From: Bacteroidota bacterium
GTDB lineage: Bacteria > Bacteroidota > Rhodothermia > JANXDC01
Length of the DNA stretch: 64,000 bases
Direction: 5' to 3'
Assembly (NCBI GenBank): GCA_025998875.1
Contig: AP024675.1
Span: 2,267,549-2,331,548, forward strand
Position numbers and translations under genes: made by a program. Position 1 is the stretch's first letter. Each line of letters begins with the position of its first letter. Below are positions 7,159-35,760 of this stretch, in pieces. A model generated the notes under the pieces. That model was not told the DNA's origin and made no database searches. It saw only the letters and a list, made by a program, of their open reading frames with translations.

Positions 7159-8448
7159 CTAACTACTAACTAATACTCTTTTTTTCACATACCTAAACAT
7201 CCAAACCTCACCCCCCAACACCGACACCGCATAAGCAACCGCTGCACCAGATGCTTGAAATGATGACGCTAGAACAAAGGCCAAAACTATCATTACCCCC
7301 AACCTCAAAACATTTACCCATGCATCTACCTGAGGCCGCATCATGGTATGCAGCAGCATCGTACCCAGACCTAAGAACACAACAGTACCCAATGCGCTGG
7401 CGGTCACAAAAAATACCGGTAATGCCCGACGGTACTCCTCGCCCAACACAATCCATTGTAGGCCCCCCAGACTGATTATTCCCAGCGCTGCAACCCCGGC
7501 GTAGTACGGCGCTATTCGCACAAGCCAGCCCAAGTACCTTTCTATCGATTCGCGTCCTTCAAGAGCAGTCACTTGCGGAAAAAGTACTGCTCGAACTGCA
7601 GTATTTAGCGTAGAGAATGCTACTGTAAAGGTCATACCTGCAGAGAAGATTCCGACTTCTTCCACAGAAGCACGAGTGGCTAGGATGAACCTTACCACGT
7701 AGGGCATGGATGTGTATGCAATACCCGATAATGCCACCCACTTGCTATACTTTATTAATTCTTCAAGGATATCCAGTTTAATACCGGACTGTATAACTTT
7801 ATACCCTCTGGGAACCACTCCAATCAACGTCAACACTAAGACCGGTGCCGTATAAGTGATCACAAGCCATGCCACTGGATTTTGAGGGAAGAATATATAT
7901 GCAACCGGCAAACCCGCAAGTCGAAGCCCGGCATATACAAAAATGTATATAGTTAGTTGTCTGAATGAGCGATAAGCCTGAAAATAAGAGTGTAAATAGG
8001 TCCAGAAGAACAAAAACCCTCCCGTAATAAGGGCTATTGCTATAAGCCGAGTGTCTGCAGAGTCAGTACCTAAGCGTGAAGATAACAAACTGCTTAGAGG
8101 CAGACATAACACGGCAAGTAGGAGAAACAGCAGACCCTTCACACCTAAAGTAGTCCCGAGGAGTATGGATTGTTTTTCCGGCTCCGCCTGATACTTGTTA
8201 AAAAGGCGAATCATGCTAAGGTTAAAGCCCAGATCACCAAAAAGGCCAACCAGAGTCGCCGTCGAAAAAGCCAGGGAAAACACACCATATCCTTCTGCGC
8301 CGAGCATTCGGGCAGCTACCACATTTACTACGAAAGCCAGCAAGTTGTTAACCGCCGTAGCAGTGCTAACCCAGAGCACAGGAGTTGCGCTCTTCTTAAG
8401 AAAGCCAAAATCCTTTCGTAAGAATACAAGTTTCTCATAAAAACTCAT
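7159..8448 (-). CDS. wzx: Wzx-like oligosaccharide flippase
   Basis: This 429-residue protein begins MSFYEKLVFLRKDFGFLKKS and continues with about twelve to fourteen transmembrane segments. Early motifs AARMLGAEGYGVFSLAFS and LGFNLSMIRLF match the polysaccharide-synthesis (Wzx/MATE-like) exporter family, which flips undecaprenyl-linked repeats across the inner membrane. An open frame fused to the aminotransferase runs upstream, but that fusion results from frameshifts there. The ATG at 8446-8448 overlaps the true aminotransferase stop as ATGA, as in the neighbours. Like the polymerase it is AT-rich. Confidence 0.82.
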   Translation of the reverse strand: MSFYEKLVFLRKDFGFLKKSATPVLWVSTATAVNNLLAFVVNVVAARMLGAEGYGVFSLAFSTATLVGLFGDLGFNLSMIRLFNKYQAEPEKQSILLGTTLGVKGLLFLLLAVLCLPLSSLLSSRLGTDSADTRLIAIALITGGFLFFWTYLHSYFQAYRSFRQLTIYIFVYAGLRLAGLPVAYIFFPQNPVAWLVITYTAPVLVLTLIGVVPRGYKVIQSGIKLDILEELIKYSKWVALSGIAYTSMPYVVRFILATRASVEEVGIFSAGMTFTVAFSTLNTAVRAVLFPQVTALEGRESIERYLGWLVRIAPYYAGVAALGIISLGGLQWIVLGEEYRRALPVFFVTASALGTVVFLGLGTMLLHTMMRPQVDAWVNVLRLGVMIVLAFVLASSFQASGAAVAYAVSVLGGEVWMFRYVKKRVLVSS

Positions 8449-9549
8449 GGACACATCAAGAACTCCATTACTTTTCTTACCACATGCCTGATCTGTCCTT
8501 CGTCGATGTATGGAATCATCGGCAGAGAAAGCACCTCCCGGGCCGCCCGCTCGGCTTCCGGGAAGGTACCTTCGGGATAGCCGTAGACCGGAAGCCGGTG
8601 GAGGGGCACCGGGTAGTACACCATGGTGCCAATTCCCTGGCTCGCCAGCTCCTCCGCCACCTCGGTCCCGCCCTTCGGGAATGCGCACCGTGTACTGGTG
8701 GAAGACATGCCCCTCTGTCAAGGGGGGCAGGACCAGGCGCGGGCACTCCCTGAAGGAGTTTGTGGTAGCGGGCGGGCCACCTCCCGGCGGTGCGGCGTTC
8801 CAAGCATCCACGTGCTTGAGCTTCACCCGGAGGAAGGCCGCCTGCAGGGCGTCCAAGCGGGAGTTGTAGCCCACCATCTCGTTGTGGTACTTCCTGCGGG
8901 AGCCGTGGGCCCGGAGCATGCGGGCCATCTCGGCCACCTCATCGCTGTTTGTGGCGATGAGCCCGCCGTCCCCGTATCCCCCCAGGTTCTTGGTGGGGAA
9001 AAAGGAGAAGGCCCCAGCGTCCCCCAGGGTACCCACCTTCCTGCCCTTGTAGGTGGCCCCGAAGGCCTGGGCGCAGTCCTCCAGAACCTTGAGGCCGTGG
9101 GAGCGGGCGATTTCCAGGATGGGGTCCATATCTGCGGGGAGGCCGTAGAGGTGCACGGGGAGGATGGCCTTGGTGCGGGGGGTGATGGCGGGGGCTATCA
9201 GGTCGGGGTTGATGTTGAAGGTCTTCGGATCTATGTCCACGAAGACCGGGGTCGCGCCCACGGCGCTGATGGCCTCGGCGGTGGCGAAGAAGGTGAAGGG
9301 GGTGGTGATCACCTCGTCCCCCGGGCCCACGCCCAAAGCCCGGAGGGCGATGACCAGAGCGTCCGTGCCCGAGTTCACCCCAATGGCGTACTTCACCCCG
9401 AGGTAAGCCGCCACCTCTTGCTCAAAGGCTTCCACCTCAGGGCCTAGGATGTACTGCCCCGAATGCATGACCCGGCGGAAGGCCTCTTCTAGCTCGGGCC
9501 AGAGGGCTTCTACCTCGGGAAGGGGGTCGTAAACGGGTATCCTCTTCAT
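8445..9549 (-). CDS. wbpE: DegT/DnrJ/EryC1 aminotransferase, WbpE/WlbC-like, frameshifted
   Basis: This is a PLP enzyme expected to aminate C3 of UDP-2-acetamido-3-keto-glucuronate. The first 250 residues are in one frame and complete: YILGPEVEAFEQEVAAYLGV, GVNSGTDALVIALRALG, VHLYGLPADMD, EDCAQAFGA and SFFPTKNLGGYGDGG, with the PLP lysine in PTKN. Between about 8640 and 8830 the reading jumps through all three frames: RYHKLLQGVP, then RLVLPPLTEGHVFHQYTVRI, then EVAEELASQGIGTMVYYPVP to the end. Recognisable family sequence on both sides of each jump, and an ATGA junction with the flippase, suggest at least three small indels in the assembly rather than decay. If real, the gene would be non-functional. 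Confidence 0.8.
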
Positions 9550-9557
9550 ACTCTCGC

Positions 9558-10137
9558 CTACGCTACCCGCTCTACTTGCTCAGGCGCTACCTGACGGTAA
9601 CGCCTGCCGCAGGTTCCACAGGTGGCCTCTTTGCCCTCAAAAGCCAACCTTTCCCCACACTCGCACACCCACCCGATCCGCCGGGCGGGGACTCCGGCCA
9701 CCAGGGCGTAAGGGGGCACGTCCTTGGTGACCACGGCCCCGGTGGCTACGAAGCACCACTCCCCCAAGGTGACCCCGCAGACGATGGTGGCGTTGGCGCC
9801 GATGGTCGCCCCCCCCTTCACCAGGGTGGGGAGGTAGTCCTCCGGGCGGTTCCGGGGAAAGGGAGAACGGGGGTTCCGCACGTTGGTGAAGACGGCCGAG
9901 GGTCCCACGAAGACGTCGTCCTCCAGAACCACGCCCTCGTAGACCGAAACGTTGTTTTGAATCTTGAACCCCGTTCCCGATGCGCACCCCCTTGGCCACG
10001 AAGACGTTCTGCCCTAAGGTGCAGTTTTCCCCGATCTCCGCCCCGCCATGACGTGGCAGAAGTGCCAGATGCGGGTACCCTCTGCCGACCTTGGCCCCTT
10101 CGTCCACGTAGGCGCTTTCGTGCTTGAAGTAGTCCAT
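9558..10137 (-). CDS. wbpD: Left-handed beta-helix N-acetyltransferase, WbpD/WlbB-like, frameshifted
   Basis: This is a hexapeptide-repeat acetyltransferase that should N-acetylate the 3-amino group made by the aminotransferase. It begins [20 protein letters not shown], shifts frame to read [10 protein letters not shown], returns for [20 protein letters not shown], then shifts to [20 protein letters not shown] and runs in frame to the end. The last part has [20 protein letters not shown] and AIVCG-type coils, plus a C-terminal pair of Cys-x-Cys and Cys-x2-Cys ([17 protein letters not shown]) resembling a small zinc knuckle. Three indels in about 200 bases are needed to restore the family fold. 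Each frame carries correct hexapeptide sequence, so assembly error is likelier than pseudogenisation. Confidence 0.75.
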
Positions 10138-10140
10138 GCC

Positions 10141-11073
10141 TCACCCCAGGAAAGGATGCCGATTTTCCGAAGAAGGCTGGCTTAAAGGCAGGGTGCGCAA
10201 AAGGGCCGCCACGCGGATGGCCTCCGCCGCCTCGTCCAGGCCAAACCCTTCCCCGGCCAGGGTCTTGCGGTAGACCTCGGTGTGGAGGTCGGTGAACCCC
10301 TCGGAGAACTCCACCTCCTCCCCGTCCACGGCGATGGAGCGGTAGGTGCGCTTCCCCTGGCGGCGCAGGGGCTCGGGCACGAAGGAGGGGTCTATGGAGA
10401 GGAACCAGCGCACCCGGGCACCCTCCAGCTCCAAATAGCCTGCGTTCACCGTGGAGGTCCGCACGTGAACCTCCACATGGAGGGCCCTGCCGAAGAGCCA
10501 GGCGAGGAGGTCAAAGAAGTGAATGCCGATGTTGGTGGCAAGCCCCCCGCTCTTGGCCTCGTCCACCTTCCAGGTCTTCCCGTACCACTTTCCCCGCCCG
10601 GTCACGTAGGTGAGGACCACGTCCTTCGCCCCCTTCTCCTGACCCAGGCGCTCCTTTAGGGCCAGGAGGCTGGGATGGACCCGGAGCTGGAGCACGGTGT
10701 AAACCCGCCTTCCCGTGCGGGCCTCGAGCTCCTGGAGGCGCGCGATCTCCTCCAGCCAGAGGACCAGGGGCTTCTCCGAGAGGGCGTTCGCCCCCAGGCG
10801 GAGGGCCATGCGGATCTGGGGGTAGTGGAGGTGGTTGGGGCTGGCGATGGAGAGGTAGTCCACCCCCTCCCCCCGGTCGCGAAGGTCTTCCAGGTAGGCC
10901 TCGAAGGCCTCGGGCTCGGTGAAGAACTCGGCCTCGGGGAAGAAGCTGTCCACGATCCCCACGTTGGTGGCCGGGTCCAGGCCCGCCACCAGCACCCCGC
11001 CCACCTCCTTGATGGCCTTGAGGTGGCGGGGGGCGATGTAGCCCGCAAGCCCGGTGAGGGCGAAGCGGGTCAT
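10141..11073 (-). CDS. wbpB: Gfo/Idh/MocA dehydrogenase, WbpB/WlbA-like
   Basis: This 310-residue NAD-dependent oxidoreductase probably oxidises C3 of UDP-GlcNAcA. The Rossmann start is slightly altered (FALTGLAGYIAPRHLKAIKE). DYLSIASPNHLHYPQIRMAL and ALSEKPLVL carry the EKP motif with the catalytic lysine, and KWYGKTWKVDEAKSGGLATN with NIGIHFFDLLAWLFG matches WlbA-type enzymes closely. The open frame extends 192 codons upstream through the dehydrogenase gene in a shadow frame. The true ATG at 11071-11073 makes an ATGA overlap. Strong context: wbpA upstream, wbpD and wbpE downstream. Confidence 0.87.
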   Translation of the reverse strand: MTRFALTGLAGYIAPRHLKAIKEVGGVLVAGLDPATNVGIVDSFFPEAEFFTEPEAFEAYLEDLRDRGEGVDYLSIASPNHLHYPQIRMALRLGANALSEKPLVLWLEEIARLQELEARTGRRVYTVLQLRVHPSLLALKERLGQEKGAKDVVLTYVTGRGKWYGKTWKVDEAKSGGLATNIGIHFFDLLAWLFGRALHVEVHVRTSTVNAGYLELEGARVRWFLSIDPSFVPEPLRRQGKRTYRSIAVDGEEVEFSEGFTDLHTEVYRKTLAGEGFGLDEAAEAIRVAALLRTLPLSQPSSENRHPFLG

Positions 11074-12436
11074 AGGAGGACCACCTTCCCTTCCGTGAGC
11101 TCCCGGGGCAGGTGTCGGGTGGCCCCCCGGGCGTCCAGCACCCGCCGGGCCTGGGCCACGATGGCCTTGTAGTCCAAGGCCGAGTGGTCCGTGGCGATGA
11201 GGACGAGGTCCTTCTCCCGCATCCTTTCCTCGCTCAGGGGCACGCTCTCCATGGCGAGGCCCCCTTCGGCGAAGCGGGGCACGTGGGGGTCGTGGTACTC
11301 CACCTCCGCCCCGAGCCGCTTGAGCCCGCGGATGACCTCTATGGCCGGGCTTTCCCGGTAGTCGGGGATGTCCCTCTTGTAGGCCACCCCCAGGACCAGG
11401 ACCTTGGCCCCTTTCACCGGAACTGCCGCTTCCGCCAGAACCCGCAAGGCCTTTTCCACGGTGAACTCGGGCATCTTGCGGTTGATCTCCCCGGCCAGGG
11501 CGATGAAGTGGGTGTTGAAGTTGTACTCCTTGGCCTTCCACTCCAGGTAGTGGGGGTCGAGGGGGATGCAGTGCCCCCCCACCCCGGGGCCCGGGTAGAA
11601 GGGCATGATGCCGAAGGGCTTGGTGAAGGCGGCGTCCAGCACCTCCCACACGTTGAGCCCCATGCGGTCGCAGAGCATGGCGAGCTCGTTGACCAGGGCA
11701 ATGTTGACCGCTCGGAAGGTGTTCTCAAAGACCTTCACCAGCTCGGCGGCCTTGGCGCTGGAGACGGGCACCACCTTTTCAATGGTCTGGCTGTAGAAGA
11801 AGACCCCGGCCTCCAAGGAGCGGGGGCCCACCCCGCCCACCACCTTGGTGGTGTTCTTTGTGGTGTAGCGCTTGTTGCCCGGGTCCACCCGCTCGGGGGA
11901 GTGGACCAGGAAGAAGTCTTCCTCCACCTTCAGGCCGCTTTGCTCCAGGATGGGGAGCATGACCTCCTCGGTGGTTCCGGGGTAGGTGGTGGACTCGAGG
12001 CTGATGAGCTGCCCCGGGCGGAGCCTAGGGGCGATCTCCCGCGTCACCCGCTCCACGTACTGGAGGTCCGGGGTCAGGTTCCGGGTGAGGGGGGTGGGCA
12101 CGGCGATCACGATCACGTCCATCTCCGCCACCCGGTCAAAGCCCGTTTCCGCCCGGAGGAGGCCTTTGTCCACCACCTCTTTGAGGACCTCGGTGGGCAC
12201 GTCGGCGATGTAGCTTTCCCCCCGGTTCACCCGCTCGGCCCGGCGGGGTTCTGCTCCACGCCAAGCACCCAGAACCCGACTCTAGCCTTCTCCACCGCGA
12301 AGGGGAGGCCCACGTAGCCTAGGCCCACCACGCCCACCACCGCCTCCTTCGCCCGAATCCGCTCCAGCAGCTCTTTCTTAATTGCGATTGCGTGATCGGT
12401 TTGAACCTGAGCAGTGGCCTTTACTTCCATGTGCAT
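11070..12436 (-). CDS. wbpA: UDP-GlcNAc 6-dehydrogenase (WbpA/WecC family), frameshifted near the N-terminus
   Basis: This UDP-sugar dehydrogenase oxidises C6 of a UDP-HexNAc to the uronic acid. The first 60 residues contain VVGVVGLGYVGLPFAVEKA, the NAD-binding fold. At about 12230-12250 the frame changes by one base, and the protein resumes with RVNRGESYIADVP. The rest is intact: VIVIAVPTPLTRN, SLESTTYPGTTEEV, HSPERVDPGN, the catalytic-cysteine region PGPGVGGHCIPLDPHYLEWK, and the C-terminal domain VLGVAYKRDIPDYRESPA. A single indel explains the break. It is the first gene of the Thermus-like block, and the stretch upstream of it holds only remnants. Confidence 0.85.
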
Positions 12437-26196: not shown

Positions 26197-27363
26197 ATGC
26201 GGCAGACGCCTTCTCCGACGGACACCGCGGCCAGGCCGCGTACAGGGCCGGCCTACCTGGTCCTGGCGCTGGCCTTCTTCGATAACCTCTCCATACTGCC
26301 CGTGCTTCCCGATTACGCCGCCCGGCTCGGGACGAGTCCCGCCCTGATCGGCCTGATCGTGGCCGCCTACTCAATGACGAACCTGCCGGGGAACGTACTC
26401 TTTGGGCATCTGGCGGACCGATACGGCCGAAAACCCCCGCTTTTGATCGGCCTTCTGGGCACGGCCCTGGTGCTAGTCGGATATACCCACGTGCGCAGCC
26501 CCCTGGAACTGCTCCTGCTCCGGGCGCTGCACGGCTTTACCGCCTCCCCGCTGACGCCGGCCGCGGTGGCCGCCATCGCAGACCAGAGCCCCGGGGGGGA
26601 AACCCGGGCTCGAGCTGCCGGCCGCATCGGCGCCGTCATCGGCCTTGTGGCCACCCTGGCCCCTCCGAGTGGGGGCATTATCGCAGAACGCCTCGGCCCA
26701 GAAGGCCTTTTCTGGATCCTTTTCGGACTCCTGATCGCCTGCATCCTGGTAGTGGGGATCCGGTTTGCGGAGACGCTTGAGCCCATCACGCCGGGTGGCC
26801 CTGTCCCGGCGCCCTGGACCCTGCTCCGGGATCCCAGACTGCTCAGCGTCTACACGGGCGCACTCGGGCTGACCTTCGCCATGGGGGTCGTTACGGTCTA
26901 CATGCCCCTGCTGGTGCTCCGGGCCGGATACGGGGTACAGACAAGCGGGATGGCCTTCGGCTTTTTTTCCCTCCTGGCCGTGCTCTTCATGCTCCTGTTG
27001 CGCGACCGAGGTGGACAAACCACGGTGCAGTGGCGGCGCCTGCACCTGGGCTTTTTGGGGCTGGCCCTGGGCCTCCTGCTGCTTGAAGAGGAGCGGGCGG
27101 TGTTGTTCGGCGCCATGGGGCTCTTCGGATCCGGCTTCGGGCTTCTTTTTCCCGCCCTCACCGTGCTCCTGCAGGCCTACTGCCCGCCCGGGAGTCGGGC
27201 AGCGGCCCTGGGGCTGTTCTTCGCCCTCTATTCTCTGGGGATCATCCTGGGGCAGACGAGCGCGGGGCTGTTGCTGGAAGCCAACCTCCCGCCCCATCGG
27301 GCGGCCTCGGTGCTGGCCCTGCTAGTGAGTCTGCTTGTCGGGCTCCTGCGCCGGAGGGGCTAG
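26197..27363 (+). CDS. Major facilitator superfamily transporter
   Basis: This 388-residue inner-membrane protein has twelve predicted transmembrane segments. The family signature between helices 2 and 3 reads GHLADRYGRKPPLLIGLLGT, and helix 5 has TLAPPSGGIIAERLG, typical of drug:proton antiporters. The N-terminal 20 residues are soluble and rich in Thr, Pro and Arg. No substrate can be assigned; multidrug or sugar efflux is plausible. Its end overlaps the convergent sbtB gene by four bases, leaving no room for a terminator. Confidence 0.85.
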   Translation: MRQTPSPTDTAARPRTGPAYLVLALAFFDNLSILPVLPDYAARLGTSPALIGLIVAAYSMTNLPGNVLFGHLADRYGRKPPLLIGLLGTALVLVGYTHVRSPLELLLLRALHGFTASPLTPAAVAAIADQSPGGETRARAAGRIGAVIGLVATLAPPSGGIIAERLGPEGLFWILFGLLIACILVVGIRFAETLEPITPGGPVPAPWTLLRDPRLLSVYTGALGLTFAMGVVTVYMPLLVLRAGYGVQTSGMAFGFFSLLAVLFMLLLRDRGGQTTVQWRRLHLGFLGLALGLLLLEEERAVLFGAMGLFGSGFGLLFPALTVLLQAYCPPGSRAAALGLFFALYSLGIILGQTSAGLLLEANLPPHRAASVLALLVSLLVGLLRRRG

Positions 27364-27665
27364 ATGTACTTGTCCCCGCGCACCACGTGCACCGGGATCA
27401 CATAAGCGATCACAGCAAAGTGCGGGAAATAGGCCTCGGCCAGACGCTCAAACATCCGATCGGCCACCTCCGGGGAGACGATGGCCTCGATTTTGACGTT
27501 TTTCCCCTCCCACTCGCTGGCCCGCACACCCCGCGAGCCCTCTCCGGTCACCTCGGTCTTCGTGTAGCCCCGCGCTCCCAGAGACCGCAGATCCCGGATG
27601 AGGCGCTCTTCGAGCACGCGCTCGGCAACGATGGTCAATAGCTTGAGTTCAACGGCAGAAACCAT
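27360..27665 (-). CDS. sbtB: SbtB-like PII-family regulator
   Basis: This 101-residue PII-fold protein has LKLLTIVAERVLEERLIRDL, a T-loop region GARGYTKTEVTGEGSRGVR and a C-terminal strand IAYVIPVHVV. In cyanobacteria SbtB binds cAMP or adenine nucleotides and controls the bicarbonate transporter SbtA. This copy lacks the cysteine-bearing C-terminal R-loop of many cyanobacterial SbtBs, so any redox or ATP/ADP apyrase control would differ. It starts three bases after sbtA ends, with GGAGGATAGG before the ATG, which is the classic pairing. Confidence 0.85.
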   Translation of the reverse strand: MVSAVELKLLTIVAERVLEERLIRDLRSLGARGYTKTEVTGEGSRGVRASEWEGKNVKIEAIVSPEVADRMFERLAEAYFPHFAVIAYVIPVHVVRGDKYI

Positions 27666-27668
27666 CTC

Positions 27669-28634
27669 CTATCCTCCGATCAGATGCGCCAGCCAGAAGT
27701 AGAGCGGAATGCCCAGGGTGAGGTTGAAGGGGAAGGTAATGCCGAGCGAGGCCGTCAGGTAATAGGTCGGGTTGGCTTCCGGAAGGGCGATGCGCACGGC
27801 GGCCGGGGCGGCGATGTAGGATGCACTGGCCACCATGGCGCCCAGCACAGCGCTGCCCCCCACGGACAGGCCCGCCCAAGAGCCCAGCAGTACGCCAAGG
27901 GCTCCGTGCAGCATGGGCACCAAAACGCCAAATCCGATCAGAAACGGCCCCACCCGTCGGAGATCACGCAACCGGCGTGCGGCCACCATCCCGAGCTCAA
28001 GCAAAAAGAGCACCAGCGCGCCCTGAAAGCCGGAGACGAAAAACGGCGCCACGGCCGCAAAACGCTCCGGACCAGCCAGGTAGCCCACCCCCACTCCGCC
28101 CAGGAGCAGGAACACACTGGGGCCCGTCAGGACCTCGTGCAGGGCCTCTGACCAGGAAGCCGCCCCCGGGGTGCGCATGCGCACCAGGAGCAGGGCCACG
28201 ACGATCGCGGGAACCTCCAGAAGGGCCACCAGCGTGGGCATGAACCCCTCCTCCGGTACGCCCAGGGAGCGGCCGAAGCTCTGCGCGGCGATAAAGGTTA
28301 CGGCCGAAACCGATCCGTAGTGGGCCGCGATGGCCGCCGCGTTGATGCGGTCAAAGCGCCCCAGTCGACGCAGAATCCCGTAAGCGCTCACCGGCGTGAT
28401 CAGGCCCAACAGCACAGTGGCCAGCGCCGGAGCCCAGAGCTGAGCCAGGGAAGCATGCCGCAGCTCTACCCCACCCTTCAGGCCGATGGCCAGAAGGAGG
28501 TAGATCGACAGGGCCCGGTAGAGCTCCTCAGGAAACCCAATCGGGCTTCTGAGGAGCGTGGCCAGCATACCCAGAGCGAAGGCGAGCACGATGGGCGAAA
28601 GCAGGTTGCCCGTTAGCGCACCGAGAGCGTCCAT
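27669..28634 (-). CDS. sbtA: SbtA-like sodium-dependent bicarbonate transporter
   Basis: This 321-residue membrane protein of the SbtA (DUF897) family has about ten transmembrane segments in two inverted halves. Diagnostic stretches are LLSPIVLAFALGMLATLLRS, LYLLLAIGLKGGVEL, IAAHYGSVSAVTFIAA, and VASASYIAAPAAVRIALPEA with SLGITFPFNLTLGIPLY. The family imports bicarbonate with sodium. The frame extends to 28664 inside asd, but the ATG at 28634 has GCAGGAG nine bases upstream and is preferred. It lies between asd and sbtB in one operon. In a heterotroph it may feed carboxylases rather than CO2 fixation; no carboxysome or RuBisCO gene is in the window. Confidence 0.88.
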   Translation of the reverse strand: MDALGALTGNLLSPIVLAFALGMLATLLRSPIGFPEELYRALSIYLLLAIGLKGGVELRHASLAQLWAPALATVLLGLITPVSAYGILRRLGRFDRINAAAIAAHYGSVSAVTFIAAQSFGRSLGVPEEGFMPTLVALLEVPAIVVALLLVRMRTPGAASWSEALHEVLTGPSVFLLLGGVGVGYLAGPERFAAVAPFFVSGFQGALVLFLLELGMVAARRLRDLRRVGPFLIGFGVLVPMLHGALGVLLGSWAGLSVGGSAVLGAMVASASYIAAPAAVRIALPEANPTYYLTASLGITFPFNLTLGIPLYFWLAHLIGG

Positions 28635-28638
28635 ATGC

Positions 28639-29715
28639 TTATGCTCCTGCCTTGGGATGCTCAAGCGACAACCATCCCCGCCGGAGCATGAGCTCCGCGT
28701 TCAGGATCGCCGCTCCGGCCGCGCCGCGAATCGTGTTGTGCACCAGGGCCACAAAGCGCACATGCCCCACCGCACAGGGCCGAATGCGACCGATACTGAC
28801 CTCCATGCCCGCTCCGAGATGGGCGTGGAGCCGCGGCCGGGGCGCGTCCTGCTCGGAGAGGACCCGGATCGGCCGCCCTGGGGCTGAGGGAAGCCCCAGA
28901 TCCGCAATCGGACTCCGGTAGGCAAGCCAGCAGGCACGAACCGCCTCCGCATCGGCCTCACGTCTCAGGCGCACCGATACGCAGAGCAGATGCCCATCCA
29001 GTACAGGCACCCGATTGGCCTGTGCGCTGATGCGCAGATCGGCGGGTTCGATGCGCTGCCCCCGGAGATCGCCCAGGATCTTGAGCGGTTCGGTCTGCAG
29101 TTTCTCCTCTTCGGCCGGGATATAGGGGATCACATCGCCCAGTATGTCGAGCGCGGAAACACCCGGATACCCGGCCCCGCTTACGGCCTGCAGCGTGGTC
29201 ACCTCGACGGCCTCCAGGCCAAAGCGCTCCTGCAGAGGCCGAAGGGCGAGCACAAGTCCGATCGTCGAGCAGTTCGGGTTGGTCACGATGCAGCCCGGGG
29301 CAAAGTCCTCCTGAAAGGCAAGCAACTCCAGATGGTCGGCGTTAACCTCGGGCACGAGCAGGGGCACCCCGGGGTGCATGCGGAATCGGCTCGCGTTGGA
29401 GACGACCACATATCCCGCCCGGGCCAGACGGGGCTCAAGCTCCTCAGCCGAGGCGGCATCCAGCGCGGAAAAGACGACCCGCACCCCCTCGGGGATCTCC
29501 TCTGCCGTTAGAACCGACATTTCGGCCACGGACTGCGGGATCGGGTCCGGGAGCAACCACCGAACCGCTTCTCGGTAAGGCCGGCCTGCGGAGCGGGCGC
29601 TGGCTATCACGGCCTGCAGGGCAAACCAGGGATGATGGGCGAGCAGACGCACCAGATGCTGCCCCACAACACCGGTTGCCCCGAGGACGGCAACCGGCAG
29701 GCGTGACTCACGCAT
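28639..29715 (-). CDS. asd: Aspartate-semialdehyde dehydrogenase, archaeal/fungal type
   Basis: This 358-residue NADP-dependent enzyme converts aspartyl phosphate to aspartate semialdehyde for Lys, Met and Thr synthesis. The Rossmann motif is VAVLGATGVVGQHLVRLL. The active-site Cys149 lies in IVTNPNCSTIGLVLAL. LQAVSGAGYPGVSALDILGD and EEEKLQTEPLKILGD mark the archaeal/fungal class. An in-frame extension to 29808 adds a basic tail; the ATG at 29715 has AAGGGAAG just upstream and its own promoter. The end lies four bases before the sbtA start, so the three genes form an operon. Asd needs oxaloacetate-derived aspartate, made by bicarbonate-using carboxylation, a possible metabolic link. Confidence 0.93.
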   Translation of the reverse strand: MRESRLPVAVLGATGVVGQHLVRLLAHHPWFALQAVIASARSAGRPYREAVRWLLPDPIPQSVAEMSVLTAEEIPEGVRVVFSALDAASAEELEPRLARAGYVVVSNASRFRMHPGVPLLVPEVNADHLELLAFQEDFAPGCIVTNPNCSTIGLVLALRPLQERFGLEAVEVTTLQAVSGAGYPGVSALDILGDVIPYIPAEEEKLQTEPLKILGDLRGQRIEPADLRISAQANRVPVLDGHLLCVSVRLRREADAEAVRACWLAYRSPIADLGLPSAPGRPIRVLSEQDAPRPRLHAHLGAGMEVSIGRIRPCAVGHVRFVALVHNTIRGAAGAAILNAELMLRRGWLSLEHPKAGA

Positions 29716-29741
29716 GGGCTTCCCTTTGTCCTTAACCGGGG

Positions 29742-29773
29742 CAAATTTCCAAACGCGGATCCGCAACCGACAA
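29742..29773 (-). promoter_or_regulatory. Promoter of asd-sbtA-sbtB
   Basis: TTGTCG (29768-29773), an 18-base spacer, GAAATTTG (29742-29749), one base off TAnnTTTG. It supports the shorter asd start, because the longer frame would begin upstream of the promoter. Confidence 0.45.
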
Positions 29774-29804: not shown

Positions 29805-30122
29805 TCATCCTGACAGGTAGCGGGCCAGAAAAGCGCCCCTGCCGAGCACCTCATCGGCGCCGGCCTGCCGGGCCTGCCGGGCCTGATCACGATCCAGGTG
29901 GGGTCCAAAGGCGACGATGCGGCATCGGGGGAAACGGGATCGGGCCTCCGCTATGGCGGCGATGGCCTCCGGGGCGGTCAGATCCACCCAGAACTGCTCG
30001 GGCTCGGCCGCACCCCCCAGCTCGGCGGCCCGTTCCATCCAGCGGACCTGAACCCCGGCGCCGGCCAGAGCAGACTCGATGCGGGAGCGCCACAGCAGAT
30101 CTGCCGTAAGCACCAGAAGCAT
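29805..30122 (-). CDS. Small receiver-like protein of unknown function
   Basis: This is a 105-residue protein. Its pattern of alternating strands and helices (LLVLTADLLWRSRIESAL, RCRIVAFGPHLDRDQARQAR, GADEVLGRGAF) resembles a response-regulator receiver fold. The first acidic pocket is reduced to one Asp (TAD), and the usual phospho-acceptor position appears as WVDLTAPEA, so a phosphorylation role is doubtful. No output domain is attached. It starts in a TGATG overlap with the CopD-like gene, hence is translated from the same mRNA. The longer frame to 30218 is a shadow of that gene. Confidence 0.6.
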   Translation of the reverse strand: MLLVLTADLLWRSRIESALAGAGVQVRWMERAAELGGAAEPEQFWVDLTAPEAIAAIAEARSRFPRCRIVAFGPHLDRDQARQARQAGADEVLGRGAFLARYLSG

Positions 30123-30589
30123 CAGGAGGTCGTGATCACTCCGGCCAGCAGGTTGTAGAGCAGCATGAGCAGCACGATCCCGGCCAGCAGGCGCCAGCGC
30201 CGAAAGGCGCCCATCCACTCCGATTCCGATCCGCGGGAGAGCGCCTCCAGGGCGCGCCGGAAGGAGGCGTTGGCCACCCCCTGCAGGACCACCGCCACCA
30301 GGCCCAGCAGGATCTTGAGGTGAAAGAGCCCGCCTCGGGTGCCGAAAACCGTACCGAACCCGATCGTAAAGAGCATGCCCACCCCGGCCAGCAGAACGAG
30401 CGCCAGGCCGGCGTGGATGACGATCCGGTCAATATGGCGGTGTATGCCCGCATACGCGAGCCGCACAGGCACTTCGGCCTCTCCATAGGCGCGGGCAAGC
30501 AGGTATTCGGCTACGAGGGCCCCGAACCAGAGGCTGAAGCCCACCACATGCAGCACCCGGAAGACCGTGCTCAACGTGTAGGCGTCCAT
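30122..30589 (-). CDS. CopD-like four-helix membrane protein
   Basis: This 155-residue protein has four hydrophobic helices and conserved-looking histidines in helix 1 (FRVLHVVGFSLWFGALVAEY), in the loop AGIHRHIDRIVIHAG and in GGLFHLKILLGL. The layout matches small CopD/HemJ-like membrane proteins, which bind heme or copper. The role is not certain. Its start overlaps the end of the E2 gene by one base (TAATG) and its end shares TGATG with the receiver-like gene, so it is coupled on both sides. Confidence 0.6.
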   Translation of the reverse strand: MDAYTLSTVFRVLHVVGFSLWFGALVAEYLLARAYGEAEVPVRLAYAGIHRHIDRIVIHAGLALVLLAGVGMLFTIGFGTVFGTRGGLFHLKILLGLVAVVLQGVANASFRRALEALSRGSESEWMGAFRRWRLLAGIVLLMLLYNLLAGVITTS

Positions 30590-31953
30590 TACAGGCTCCG
30601 ATGCACGTCAAAAGATTCCAGGATCTCTACGAGTCGGGACAGAAAAGCGGCCCCCATGGCTCCGTCGATGAGCCGATGGTCGTAAGAGAGCGAGAGATAC
30701 ATCATATGGCGGATGGCGATCACGTCCCCATAGTCGGTTTCCACGACCACGGGGCGTTTTTTGATCTGGCCTGTGGCCAGGATGGCCACCTGAGGTTGGT
30801 GAATAATGGGCGTGCCCATGAGGCTGCCCAGGCTGCCCACGTTGGTCAGCGTAAAGGTGCCCCCTTCGAGTTCCTCGGGCTTCAGTTGTTTGTTGCGCGC
30901 CCTTGTGGCCAGATCATGGATGGCCCGGGCCAGCCCGAGCAGGTTGAGCGCATCGGCGTGTCGGATGACGGGCACGATCAGTCCGGTCTGCCCGATGGCC
31001 ACGGCCACCCCGATATGGATGTCTCGCTTGAGCAGGATGCGGGTTCCGTCTATGGAGGCGTTCAGGTAAGGAAACTCCTTGAGCGCCCGCACGAGGGCCT
31101 CGACGAAAATGGGCGTATAGGTGAGCCGGAAGCCCTCTCGACGCTCGAACTCCTCCTTATGGCGCTCGCGCCACTGCACGATACGCGTCACATCGGCTTC
31201 CGCAAAGGAGGTCACATGGGGAGCCGTCTGCTTGCTTCGGACCATATGCTCGGCGATGAGCCGACGCATGCGGTCCATTTCGATGATCTCGACCCGATCT
31301 CCATAAGTGGGCGCGACCGGAGCGGGCTCCGCGGGGGCGGGCTCCATAGAGGGCGCCGGTTCCGGTTCCCGAACGGGTCGCTCCACAGGGGCAGGAGCCA
31401 GACCGGCACGGCGGCGTTCCAGGTAGGCCAGCACATCCCGCTTGGTCACCCGTCCGCCGGCTCCAGACCCCGGAATGGCCTCCAGCTCCTCCAGGGAGAT
31501 GCCCTCGGCCCGGGCGATCGAGCGCACCAGGGGAGAGTAAAAGCGGCCTGAAGGCCCCATCCGCCGGGGAGGGGTCTGCCCCGCGGGGGCGCGATGGCCG
31601 TCGGTTTCAGCGGGCGCGGAAGCCACAGGGGCCGGCTCGATCGGCTTCAGGGCCGGTTCGGCCTCGGGCTGCGATGGGGCCGGCGCCGATTTTGGCATAG
31701 CGGCCTCGGAAACCTCGGTCTCGATGCGGGCGATCACCGTGCCCACGGGAACGGTCTGTCCCTCGGGCACCAGGATCTCCCGAAGCACTCCGGATGCCGG
31801 AGAGGGCACCTCGGAGTCCACCTTGTCCGTGCCGATCTCCAGCAGGGTCTCGTCGCGCTCGACGCGATCGCCGGGACGCTTCCGCCACACCAGCACGGTG
31901 CCTTCTGTGATGCTTTCGCCCATTTTGGGCATTACCACATCCACGATCGCCAT
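30589..31953 (-). CDS. Dihydrolipoyl acyltransferase (E2) of a 2-oxoacid dehydrogenase complex
   Basis: This is a 454-residue core subunit. The N-terminal lipoyl domain carries GTDKVDSEVPSPASG with the lipoylated lysine. A Pro/Ala/Glu-rich linker leads to the E3/E1-binding domain (FYSPLVRSIARAEGISLEEL, GGRVTKRDVLAYLE). A second linker precedes the catalytic domain ending in LSLSYDHRLIDGAMGAAFL, which holds the His and Asp of the active site. It transfers acyl groups to CoA. The E1 partner lies two genes upstream, so this is probably the branched-chain or a mixed 2-oxoacid complex. E3 is not in the window. Confidence 0.92.
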   Translation of the reverse strand: MAIVDVVMPKMGESITEGTVLVWRKRPGDRVERDETLLEIGTDKVDSEVPSPASGVLREILVPEGQTVPVGTVIARIETEVSEAAMPKSAPAPSQPEAEPALKPIEPAPVASAPAETDGHRAPAGQTPPRRMGPSGRFYSPLVRSIARAEGISLEELEAIPGSGAGGRVTKRDVLAYLERRRAGLAPAPVERPVREPEPAPSMEPAPAEPAPVAPTYGDRVEIIEMDRMRRLIAEHMVRSKQTAPHVTSFAEADVTRIVQWRERHKEEFERREGFRLTYTPIFVEALVRALKEFPYLNASIDGTRILLKRDIHIGVAVAIGQTGLIVPVIRHADALNLLGLARAIHDLATRARNKQLKPEELEGGTFTLTNVGSLGSLMGTPIIHQPQVAILATGQIKKRPVVVETDYGDVIAIRHMMYLSLSYDHRLIDGAMGAAFLSRLVEILESFDVHRSL

Positions 31954-31969: not shown

Positions 31970-33508
31970 TTATCGCATCACCTGGGCCGAAGGGCCCCGC
32001 TCCAGGGAGCGCAGATAGGCCACCAGCGAGCGGATCTGCAGTTCCGTAAGCGGTCCCCCCCGGGAGCGGGCAAAACCGGGCATCATGCGCTGTTTGCGCT
32101 CATCCGGCGTACCCAGGGCAATCATAGCTTCCAGCTGTCGGTCCGTGCGCTGTTGGAGCAACGCGCGCGTCAGCTTCGGACCCGGATGGGCCTTGCCGTC
32201 ATCGTATCCGGCCGGACCGTGACACATCTGACAGACGGCCTCGTAGAGCTCCGCACCCAGCAACCCCTGCGCCGGATCGGCATGACAGCTGCGGCAGGAG
32301 CCCTCGAAAAGGGACCCGTGTCCCATCGCGCCCCTCTCCGCCATGGCGCCGGGGGCGGGAAGCCGGGGATGCTCGATGATCTCCGCCTCGACGACGAGCG
32401 TCTTCAGGTACTGCTCCGGATCGTTGGAGTACACGGTGATGGTTTTCTGCACAAAGCCCAGCTTACCCTCCGTGTCCAGGCGCACCTGCAGATGGCCCGT
32501 CTCCCCGGGGGCGAATTCCGTCTTGTCGAGCACCACCGCCGTACAACCACAGGAGGCGCGCAGGTCCCGGATGCGCAGCGGGCCCCGGCCCGCGTTGCGG
32601 AAGCGGAAGACATAAACCGGGGCCTGGCCGGTGATGACCTGCCCGAAGTGATGTCGCTCGTGTTCGAAGACGATCCGGGCCCCGTTGCGCACGTCTTCTT
32701 CCGTGGGCCGGTAGAGCGCCCCCTCCGGCTCCCCTCCGGTCAGGAAAGTCGAGCCCCGGAGCCGGAGCTCCAGTTCCGGCACGTCGGGGTGGTCTGTCTG
32801 CAACCGGATCCGGAACGCAAAGGGGCCTTCTTCGGAGAGCGCGGCCGTATCGAACCACACCTGCACGGGGGCCACTTCGTCGCGGAACAGGGGCACGGCG
32901 GGCAGGGCCAGCCGCACCGCGTGCGTATCCGGCAGGCCCTCCAGGCGCCATCCGGTAAAGAGCACGGGGCGAGAGCCCGTGTTCTGCACCCGGAACGTAT
33001 GCGCGAGCACCGATCCGCGCCATACCCTGCCCCAGTCGTGCTCCGTGCCGTCCCAGAGCAAGGGGCCGGTGCGCACGGCCTGCGCCGGATCCAGGGGACG
33101 GAAGCGAACCTCCCCTTCGATGAAGAGCACGATCTGGGCCGGCTCGCCGTCGGTGACCACGACGGCGGACTTGCGAAACGGTCCGGGACGGCCGCGGGAG
33201 TCGAAGGCCAGCGTCACCGCCCCCACCCCGCCGGGCGGGATGGGCTCGCGCGTCCATTCCGGAGCCGTGCACCCGCAGGAGGGCTGCACGGCCAGAATGC
33301 GCAGGGGTCCGGTGCCCACGTTCTCGATCTGAAACGTATAGCGGGGTTCTTCGCCCTCGTAGACCACCCCGAAGTTGTGCGTCGTCTTCTCAACCCTGGC
33401 CTTGCCCTCTCCGAGCGGTCGCTCCTCACCTTCGGCGCGCAGGCCGAGCGTAAAGAGCGCCCCCAGCAACAGGGCGGAGAAAACCAGACTGATGACCCGG
33501 GCTTTCAT
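31970..33508 (-). CDS. Secreted fusion of two DUF1573 domains with a C-terminal cytochrome c
   Basis: This 512-residue exported protein has a signal peptide (MKARVISLVFSALLLGALFT). Two beta-sandwich DUF1573 repeats each carry the cysteine motif of the family (VQPSCGCTAPEW near 75 and RASCGCTAVVL near 320), with a related domain between them. Near 400-430 are two heme c motifs, CRSCH and CQMCH, then a C-terminal c-type domain with RMMPGFA as likely axial Met. The first CxxCH lies in a short segment and may be a second heme site. The start at 33508 has GGGGAGGAA upstream; the frame's first ATG is 18 bases earlier. It lies between E1 and E2 genes, which is unusual. Electron transfer is inferred. 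Confidence 0.82.
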   Translation of the reverse strand: MKARVISLVFSALLLGALFTLGLRAEGEERPLGEGKARVEKTTHNFGVVYEGEEPRYTFQIENVGTGPLRILAVQPSCGCTAPEWTREPIPPGGVGAVTLAFDSRGRPGPFRKSAVVVTDGEPAQIVLFIEGEVRFRPLDPAQAVRTGPLLWDGTEHDWGRVWRGSVLAHTFRVQNTGSRPVLFTGWRLEGLPDTHAVRLALPAVPLFRDEVAPVQVWFDTAALSEEGPFAFRIRLQTDHPDVPELELRLRGSTFLTGGEPEGALYRPTEEDVRNGARIVFEHERHHFGQVITGQAPVYVFRFRNAGRGPLRIRDLRASCGCTAVVLDKTEFAPGETGHLQVRLDTEGKLGFVQKTITVYSNDPEQYLKTLVVEAEIIEHPRLPAPGAMAERGAMGHGSLFEGSCRSCHADPAQGLLGAELYEAVCQMCHGPAGYDDGKAHPGPKLTRALLQQRTDRQLEAMIALGTPDERKQRMMPGFARSRGGPLTELQIRSLVAYLRSLERGPSAQVMR

Positions 33509-33526
33509 GGGCCGCTTCCTCCCCAT

Positions 33527-35617
33527 TTAGTATCGGGCCAGATCGCGCATGGCCCGGTATACGGTCTCTTCCTGCGGCAGGACGGCCCGCTCCAGTACAT
33601 CCGCATAGGGAATGGGCGTAAACTGCCCGGCGTGTCGGCGCACGGGCGCGTCCAAGTACTCGAAGGCCTGATCGGCGATCTGCGCGGCGATCTCGGCGCC
33701 AAACCCCACAAATTCCACGTCCTCATGCAGCACGAGCACCCGTCCGGTTTTGCGCACCGAGGCGAAGACGGTCTCCATATCCAGGGGCACGATCGTGCGC
33801 AGATCGATAACCTCGGCCTCGATGCCCTCTTCCTGGGCGAGCCGTTTGGCCGCATTCAGCGCCATGTAGAGCACAAGCCCATAGGTGACCACGGTCAGAT
33901 CCCGGCCCGGACGCACCACGGCTGCCTTGCCGAAGGGCACCAGATAATCCGCATCCGGTTCAGGCCGACGCGCGGCCGCATGCCGATAGAGGCCCTTGTG
34001 TTCCAGAAACAGCACGGGATCGCGCAGCCGGATCGCCGTCTTGAGCAGCCCTTTGGCATCGGCGGCGTTGGAGGGAAAGGCGATATACCAGCCCGGAAAG
34101 TGGGCAAAGGTGGCCTCGATGTTCTGGCTGTGGCAGAGTCCCCCGTGGATGTACCCCCCCACGGGCACGCGCACCACCACGGGCGCCTCCCAGCCGCCGT
34201 TGGACCGGTATCGGATCACGGAAAGCCCGTTGCGCAGCTCCGACATGGCCGGCCAGATGTAGTCGCCGAACTGGATCTCAACGACAGGCTTAAAGCCCCG
34301 CAGGGCCAGGCCAATGGCCGTGCCGATAATGGAGGCCTCAGCCAGCGGGGAATTGAAGCACCGATCCGGTCCGAAACGCTCCGTAAGCCCGCGCGTGGCG
34401 GTAAAGACCCCGCCTTTGGGTCCGGCCACGTCCTCCCCGTAGACGAGGATGCGCGTATCACGGGCCATCTCCTCATGCAGGGCGTGGTTGATGGCATCCA
34501 CCATGACGATGGGCTCCCCTGAGGGCTCGGAGGCTTCGTAGGTGAGCTCCAGGGTGCCTTCGAAGAAGACATGCCGCTTTACCGTGGCCGGGTCCGGATC
34601 GGGGCGAGATTCGGCCCAGTCGGCCGCCTCATCGACCAGACGACGCACCTCGGCGCGCAGGGCCTCCAATTCCGCCTCCTCAATTAGCCCGACCCGGAGC
34701 ATAGCCTCCTCCAGACGCCGGATGGGGTCGCGCCGCCGATCCGCCTCCAGTTCCTCTTCGGAGCGGTACTTGCGGTGGTCGTCGCTGGAGGAATGCGGCA
34801 ACAGGCGCACCACATGGGCGTGGAGCACAACGGGCCCCTTCCCGGACCGGGCCAGGGCAACGGCCTCCCGGGCCACGGCCCAGGAGGTGAAGAAGTCCGT
34901 GCCGTCAAACTCCATCACGCTCACCCCTTCGTAGCCGCGCGCGATGCGGGAAATGCCGCTCCACTCCCCGCTTCCGGCCGTCTGCTGCCAGACGGGCACG
35001 CTGATGGCGTACTTGTTGTCCTGCACCACAAAAAGCACAGGCAACCGTTCGCGCGCCGCCCAGTTGAGCGCCTCATGCCATACGCCCTGGCTTGTTCCCC
35101 CCTCCCCGATGCCCGTGTAGACGACCTCATCGAGCCCGAGCCGCCGGATGCCCATGGCGCAACCCACGGCGGGCAATAGCTGGTTGCCCACAGAACTCGA
35201 CGGGGAGACGATGCGCAGCTCCGGATAGCTGAAGTGCTCCGGCATCTGCCGGCCGCCGGAGCTGGGATCTTCGGCCTTGGCCAGGTGCGCCAGCAGGGCG
35301 TGCTCCGGGCGCATGCCCAGCTGAAGCACCAGCGTCAGGTCCCGGTAGTAGGGAAAGACCCAGTCCTTGCCCGCAATCAGATTGGCCCCCAGGGCGACCT
35401 GCACGGCCTCGTGTCCAGAAGTGCCGATGTGAAAAGCGCCTTTGCCCTGCTTGAGCAGCATGAGCATCTTTTCATCCAGGCGCCGGGCCGTGAGCATGGT
35501 CCGGTAGAACCGGAGCAACTGCTCGCGGTCAAACTCTTCTATGCGCGCGGCTGCGGGCAGGGTGGTCACCTCCCCGTTCCCATTGGCGCCGAGCGCGTTC
35601 TGCCTTCTGCGTGCCAT
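33527..35617 (-). CDS. Fused E1 alpha-beta subunit of 2-oxoisovalerate-type dehydrogenase
   Basis: This 696-residue thiamine-diphosphate enzyme decarboxylates a 2-oxoacid and transfers the acyl group to E2. The alpha part (to about residue 340) has the TPP motif GIGEGGTSQGVWHEALNWAA with QDNKYAISVP, and the phosphorylation-loop-like LLPHSSSDDHRKYRS. The beta part begins at IVMVDAINHALHEEMARD and has GEDVAGPKGGVF, FNSPLAEASIIGTAIGLAL and VGGYIHGGLCHSQNIEA. Single-chain alpha-beta E1 is common in Bacteroidota. The ATG at 35617 is chosen because the longer frame begins upstream of the promoter. Confidence 0.92.
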   Translation of the reverse strand: MARRRQNALGANGNGEVTTLPAAARIEEFDREQLLRFYRTMLTARRLDEKMLMLLKQGKGAFHIGTSGHEAVQVALGANLIAGKDWVFPYYRDLTLVLQLGMRPEHALLAHLAKAEDPSSGGRQMPEHFSYPELRIVSPSSSVGNQLLPAVGCAMGIRRLGLDEVVYTGIGEGGTSQGVWHEALNWAARERLPVLFVVQDNKYAISVPVWQQTAGSGEWSGISRIARGYEGVSVMEFDGTDFFTSWAVAREAVALARSGKGPVVLHAHVVRLLPHSSSDDHRKYRSEEELEADRRRDPIRRLEEAMLRVGLIEEAELEALRAEVRRLVDEAADWAESRPDPDPATVKRHVFFEGTLELTYEASEPSGEPIVMVDAINHALHEEMARDTRILVYGEDVAGPKGGVFTATRGLTERFGPDRCFNSPLAEASIIGTAIGLALRGFKPVVEIQFGDYIWPAMSELRNGLSVIRYRSNGGWEAPVVVRVPVGGYIHGGLCHSQNIEATFAHFPGWYIAFPSNAADAKGLLKTAIRLRDPVLFLEHKGLYRHAAARRPEPDADYLVPFGKAAVVRPGRDLTVVTYGLVLYMALNAAKRLAQEEGIEAEVIDLRTIVPLDMETVFASVRKTGRVLVLHEDVEFVGFGAEIAAQIADQAFEYLDAPVRRHAGQFTPIPYADVLERAVLPQEETVYRAMRDLARY

Positions 35618-35648
35618 GGCGATGTGTTCCGGGGTTTGCAAGCGAGGG

Positions 35649-35679
35649 CAAAATAGAAACCCCTCTTCCTGCCGTGCAA
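35649..35679 (-). promoter_or_regulatory. Promoter of the E1-cytochrome-E2 operon
   Basis: TTGCAC (35674-35679), an 18-base spacer, TATTTTG (35649-35655). It is divergent from the folB promoter and sets the leader at about 25 bases. Confidence 0.55.
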
Positions 35680-35701
35680 GGATAGCCCCCGGCCCCGGGG
35701 C

Positions 35702-35731
35702 TTGGCTCTCCGCCGGGGATGGGCGTAAATT
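35702..35731 (+). promoter_or_regulatory. Promoter of folB-folK-kinase operon
   Basis: TTGGCT (35702-35707), an 18-base spacer, TAAATT (35726-35731). If correct, the ATG at 35719 lies inside the promoter and folB must start at the later GTG. Confidence 0.4.
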
Positions 35732-35760
35732 CACAGGACCAGAAGACGGCTTCCCCAACC

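Follow-up and report, generated by a model that had tools for sequence, protein, structure and literature searches.

PII-gated bicarbonate uptake by the Na+/bicarbonate symporter SbtA and its small partner SbtB is known from photosynthetic CO2 concentration; in the SbtA of Synechocystis the anion docks at residues S114, Y140, S324 and S327 (PMC8352866), and in SbtB an RxxR motif holds the nucleotide phosphates (PMC10117731). A second family, SbtA2, comes with its own partner, SbtB2; its distribution has been reviewed (PMC9477826), and PMC13249358, citing Rourke 2026, reports chloride-dependent HCO3- uptake in E. coli by the SbtA2 proteins of marine Synechococcus. Here we analysed a 64,000-nt stretch of contig AP024675.1 from a Bacteroidota bacterium (hereafter the window; the genome is one contig of 2.35 Mb with completeness 100), in which an sbtA-sbtB pair lies directly downstream of asd, the gene for aspartate-semialdehyde dehydrogenase. 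The pair is an ordinary SbtA-SbtB module of a non-canonical subfamily. We consider it reasonably probable that it provides a nucleotide-gated bicarbonate supply for general HCO3--using enzymes, excluding phosphoenolpyruvate (PEP) carboxylase and pyruvate carboxylase, in a heterotroph lacking α- and β-carbonic anhydrase (CA). If the transporter works, a form of carbon uptake associated with photosynthesis would also serve the general metabolism of heterotrophs, including genomes without either CA type.

The SbtA-SbtB pair and its subfamily

The genes asd, sbtA and sbtB are intact and all on the minus strand, at essentially the positions given in the original prediction, and family matches confirm their identities. 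The sbtA gene (27669..28634) encodes a member of the Na+/bicarbonate symporter family of 321 aa from the ATG at 28634, or possibly 331 aa from a TTG upstream at 28664, and is matched over its full length by PF05982 Sbt_1 (390 bits with a cut-off of 27; positions 1-307 of 308), with an E-value of 4e-29 against the SbtA structure 7cye. In alignment with Synechocystis SbtA, residues S114, G111, S322 and S324 are retained, while Y140 is replaced by V, D325 by Y and S327 by A. At the four HCO3- docking positions the window protein therefore has S, V, S and A where L027, L116 and L117 have S, Y, S and S, and it keeps two of the four residues that mark canonical SbtA (SbtA1). This pattern extends to more than 100 sequences of the window kind, which carry V, L, M or another non-tyrosine at position 140, Y at 325 and A at 327. 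In the tree, built by a quick method that leaves the placement of one long row (L118) unsure, a long branch, supported at 100, divides canonical SbtA from the window type and the second copies of cyanobacteria. Rows of the window type that come from cyanobacteria (L094, L100, L103 and L106), to which the window SbtA is 43-47% identical, group with the non-canonical sequences, and cyanobacterial genomes can carry both kinds. The window pair belongs to a non-canonical subfamily that bears the motif SASYIAAP and is spread over many bacterial phyla, and to judge from its substrate site and its shorter SbtB T-loop it is probably of the SbtA2/SbtB2 type. Second Sbt_1 copies in part of the class (L027, L148 and others) are of the canonical SbtA type and accompanied by an SbtB with a long T-loop.

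The sbtB gene (27360..27665, minus strand) encodes a PII-like protein of 101 aa (PF00543, 72 bits) whose nearest solved structure is Thermus TTHA0516 (2cz4, E 5e-35), followed by SbtBs of cyanobacteria at E ~1e-9 to 1e-10. Canonical PII matches at E 0.02 or worse, which places the fold nearer to SbtB. Its T-loop (GEGSRGVRASEWEGKNVKIE) is 5-6 residues shorter than those of the SbtB structures and of the L027 paralogue, with the RxxR motif retained at the base, where GEGSRGVR of the window aligns with GEGSRNVR of SbtB7001. Binding of adenine nucleotides by the window SbtB is predicted. The protein ends in VVRGDKYI, without the C-terminal CGPxGC R-loop, bearing out the original prediction that the cysteine R-loop is missing. 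The lack is, however, not special to this gene: among the SbtBs of the class and of 80 SbtA loci outside it (~876 kb in total), CGPxGC is limited to the canonical cyanobacterial copies L116 and L117, and its absence is therefore a property of the whole group. SbtBs that lack the R-loop are reported to respond chiefly to the energy state of the cell (PMC10991534). The order found here, with sbtB after sbtA, recurs in most relatives within the class and in 54 of the 80 loci from other phyla.

Genomic neighbours and the likely substrate

When the neighbours of SbtA of the window kind were clustered, β-CA ranked first. Profile searches place a β-CA gene no more than ~450 bp from SbtA in 14 of the 80 cross-phylum loci, with such pairs in Planctomycetota, Verrucomicrobiota, Gemmatimonadota, Alphaproteobacteria and Cyanobacteriota. 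Within the class (245 genomes, of which 70 contain Sbt_1 and 233 match the Asd model TIGR00978), 33 genomes have both genes, and these lie within 3.1 kb of each other in nine and less than 700 bp apart in six, across at least five families. Chance would give well under one such case per set, a rough expectation that takes one or two CA genes per ~4 Mb. A four-gene order of mpsC-like, β-CA, sbtA and sbtB genes occurs twice (L133 2118-4921 and L134 3602-6694), MpsAB being an inorganic-carbon system described as interchangeable with CA (PMC6689103). Genes of the purE family lie within 4 kb of SbtA in six loci (L030, L053, L059, L075, L084 and L097), accompanied in four of them by purK-like genes. 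PurK uses bicarbonate. The β-CA, mpsC and purE-family neighbours together point to inorganic carbon as the context of this SbtA subfamily and, because the subfamily adjoins CA far above chance, bicarbonate appears to be the likeliest substrate of the window SbtA. Direct adjacency of β-CA to a SASYIAAP-type SbtA was seen in L034, L035, L039, L046, L047, L049, L054, L060, L076, L092, L096, L100, L102 and L103, and also in L131-L138.

In the proposed mechanism, SbtA would act as a sodium-bicarbonate symporter, importing HCO3- on the Na+ gradient into a heterotroph in which neither β-CA nor α-CA was matched (this and the other gene absences from the genome rest on single family searches). The imported HCO3- may feed its ordinary users, for example acetyl-CoA carboxylase, carbamoyl-phosphate synthase and PurK, and not PEP or pyruvate carboxylase. 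SbtB, as a PII-like sensor of adenine nucleotides, would bind the trimeric SbtA through the T-loop and damp it according to adenylate state, doing so without the redox-controlled ATPase of the R-loop SbtBs.

Several observations weigh against this account, some touching the substrate and others the place of CA. Two of the four HCO3--docking residues are changed throughout the subfamily (Y140 to V, L or M, and S327 to A), and alanine at any of the four sites lowers transport by Synechocystis SbtA to 10-40% (PMC8352866). The equation with SbtA2 draws on cyanobacterial genomes that hold both types rather than on alignment to the tested proteins. The motif SASYIA is also present in Shewanella SO_3758 (S268, A269, S270, Y271, I272, A273), a protein that came to light in work on formate tolerance, whose authors propose that it acts as an exporter (PMC12093963). 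These altered residues, and the point mutation in SO_3758 that confers formate tolerance (PMC12093963), would suit a subfamily that moves another small anion, such as formate or another monocarboxylate, possibly outward, with SbtB gating the flux. We regard such a substrate as unlikely given the repeated adjacency to β-CA, MpsC and PurE-family genes and the HCO3- import in E. coli reported for SbtA2 (PMC13249358). As for CA, a γ-CA homologue is present in the genome (L123), below the curated cut-off, and the cell may therefore not be without CA activity. Nor, across the 245 genomes of the class, is the presence of SbtA significantly associated with the absence of CA (odds ratio 0.75, p 0.33; for α- or β-CA 0.61, p 0.09), in statistics uncorrected for kinship.

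Mutual exclusion of SbtA and CA across these genomes was therefore rejected as not significant, and the idea that SbtA replaces CA stands as a suggestion only. A wider generalisation, that SbtA2-SbtB2, often together with β-CA, MpsC or PurE/PurK, forms a widespread adenylate-gated bicarbonate module of heterotrophs that can replace CA in lineages like that of the window, is tentative, and we would put it somewhat below an even chance. If true, PII-controlled carbon uptake would extend far beyond photosynthesis.

A role in concentrating CO2 for Rubisco, as in cyanobacteria, would be suggested by the single PF00016 match in the genome, which scores 82 bits in Pfam. The matching protein of 397 aa (L151 1096-2289; genome C1:478390-479073), encoded upstream of a dapD-like gene, nevertheless falls under all Rubisco and MtnW cut-offs in NCBIfam, its nearest model there being the MtnW-type enolase, for which it is far under the cut-off, and it carries LKPMGLG and LIKDDH instead of the usual active-site stretches. 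The genome thus contains a Rubisco-like protein only and no match to the true Rubisco on which a cyanobacterial-type CO2-concentrating mechanism depends, and β-CA is likewise missing, which leaves membership of sbtAB in such a system extremely improbable.

The asd gene and the run upstream of sbtA

The asd gene (28639..29715, minus strand) encodes an aspartate-semialdehyde dehydrogenase of 358 aa (TIGR00978, 423 bits, cut-off 301); an alternative ATG at 29808 lies upstream and overlaps the stop of the preceding gene. The stop of asd and the ATG of sbtA are separated by 4 bp, the stop of sbtA and the ATG of sbtB by 3 bp, and GGAGGA precedes the sbtB start, because of which expression of asd-sbtA-sbtB as one unit is likely; co-transcription is predicted here from spacing. 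No consensus promoters were found within the run, a result that is not informative, and no Rfam families were found in the window.

The description of this cluster as an amino-acid operon holds for its tight, co-directional arrangement but is too narrow, because asd comes sixth in a minus-strand run headed by a fused 2-oxoacid dehydrogenase E1 alpha-beta (33527..35758; NF006667 291 bits, TIGR03181 262 bits). Between the two lie genes for a DUF1573/cytochrome c protein (31970..33526; PF07610 197 bits, PF00034 40 bits), a 2-oxoacid dehydrogenase E2 with lipoyl, E3-binding and acyltransferase domains (30589..31953; PF00198 278 bits; 80% identity to the sister species), a DUF2214-like membrane protein (30122..30589; PF09980 at 30.5 bits, under the curated cut-off of 34.1; 69% to the sister species) and a small receiver-like ORF without a family match (29805..30128; 61% identity to the sister-species copy). 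At the other end, a plus-strand gene for a major facilitator superfamily (MFS) transporter (26197..27363; PF07690, 168 bits) is convergent with sbtB and, since its end abuts the sbtB stop, bounds the run.

The original prediction linked the three genes through metabolism: SbtA would supply bicarbonate for anaplerotic carboxylation to oxaloacetate, and so to aspartate, and would be co-expressed with asd for this purpose. The tight spacing agrees with such a link, as does the survival of the asd-sbtA-sbtB order across real divergence, the sister species retaining it at 71-82% identity. The link is nevertheless contradicted by gene content, as the complete genome has no match to PEP carboxylase of either type (PF00311 and PF14010) or to the PYC/OADA domain of pyruvate carboxylase and oxaloacetate decarboxylase (PF02436), all of which were matched in control genomes. 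The HCO3--using routes to oxaloacetate through PEP or pyruvate carboxylase were thus undetected, a result that covers these two routes and not PEP carboxykinase, malic enzyme or the glyoxylate shunt. Distribution argues in the same direction. In the class asd is almost universal and SbtA is missing from most members, and among the asd matches listed the two genes adjoin in two of the 70 SbtA-bearing genomes, those of the window and one congener; asd was absent from the loci read directly apart from those of the window's genus, and did not occur in the 80 loci from other phyla. In two genomes of another genus (G007 and G011) asd lies 11-12 kb from a divergent SbtA, an arrangement treated as unrelated. 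Because the congener retains the whole larger block in synteny (E1, E2, DUF2214, the receiver-like ORF, asd, sbtA and sbtB), the adjacency represents one event in one genus, and a conserved asd-sbtA operon was rejected. The placement of asd upstream of sbtA probably reflects a genus-specific gene order, with sbtAB at the end of a run that a 2-oxoacid dehydrogenase heads. An aspartate link is therefore very improbable and, being confined to one genus and to a genome without the enzymes connecting bicarbonate to aspartate, offers little. The original prediction named adjacency in this one genome alone as a refutation, and the observed distribution comes close to that. What stands of the earlier reading is the SbtA-SbtB pair outside the cyanobacteria, its missing R-loop and bicarbonate as the likeliest substrate.

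Elsewhere in the window, sugar-biosynthesis genes at 7159-11649 look frame-broken: one for a hexapeptide acetyltransferase is divided between 9558-9932 and 9637-10137, and one for a DegT-like aminotransferase continues in a different frame. These would be either sequencing errors or pseudogenes.

Comparison with known systems

The window pair shares with the canonical SbtA-SbtB of Synechocystis (7cye/7cyf) the 10-helix symporter family, residues S114, G111, S322 and S324, the position of sbtB beside sbtA and the RxxR motif, and differs from it at Y140 (V), S327 (A) and D325 (Y), in a T-loop 5-6 residues shorter and in having no CGPxGC. TTHA0516 of Thermus thermophilus (2cz4), the nearest relative of the window SbtB among solved structures, has the same short T-loop and RGxKY ending; it is annotated as a hypothetical protein, and a literature search found no functional study of it. 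The MpsABC/DAB systems of heterotrophs resemble the proposed role in supplying inorganic carbon to non-autotrophs, and MpsC-family genes stand beside SbtA and CA in L133 and L134, but their transporter is unrelated to SbtA and we know of no PII-like partner for them. With the cyanobacterial SbtA2/SbtB2 (PMC13249358, PMC9477826), the window pair probably has in common a second SbtA subfamily served by its own PII-like protein, whereas it resides in a heterotroph whose genome has no match to a true Rubisco and its SbtA is 43-47% identical to the cyanobacterial rows of its own type.

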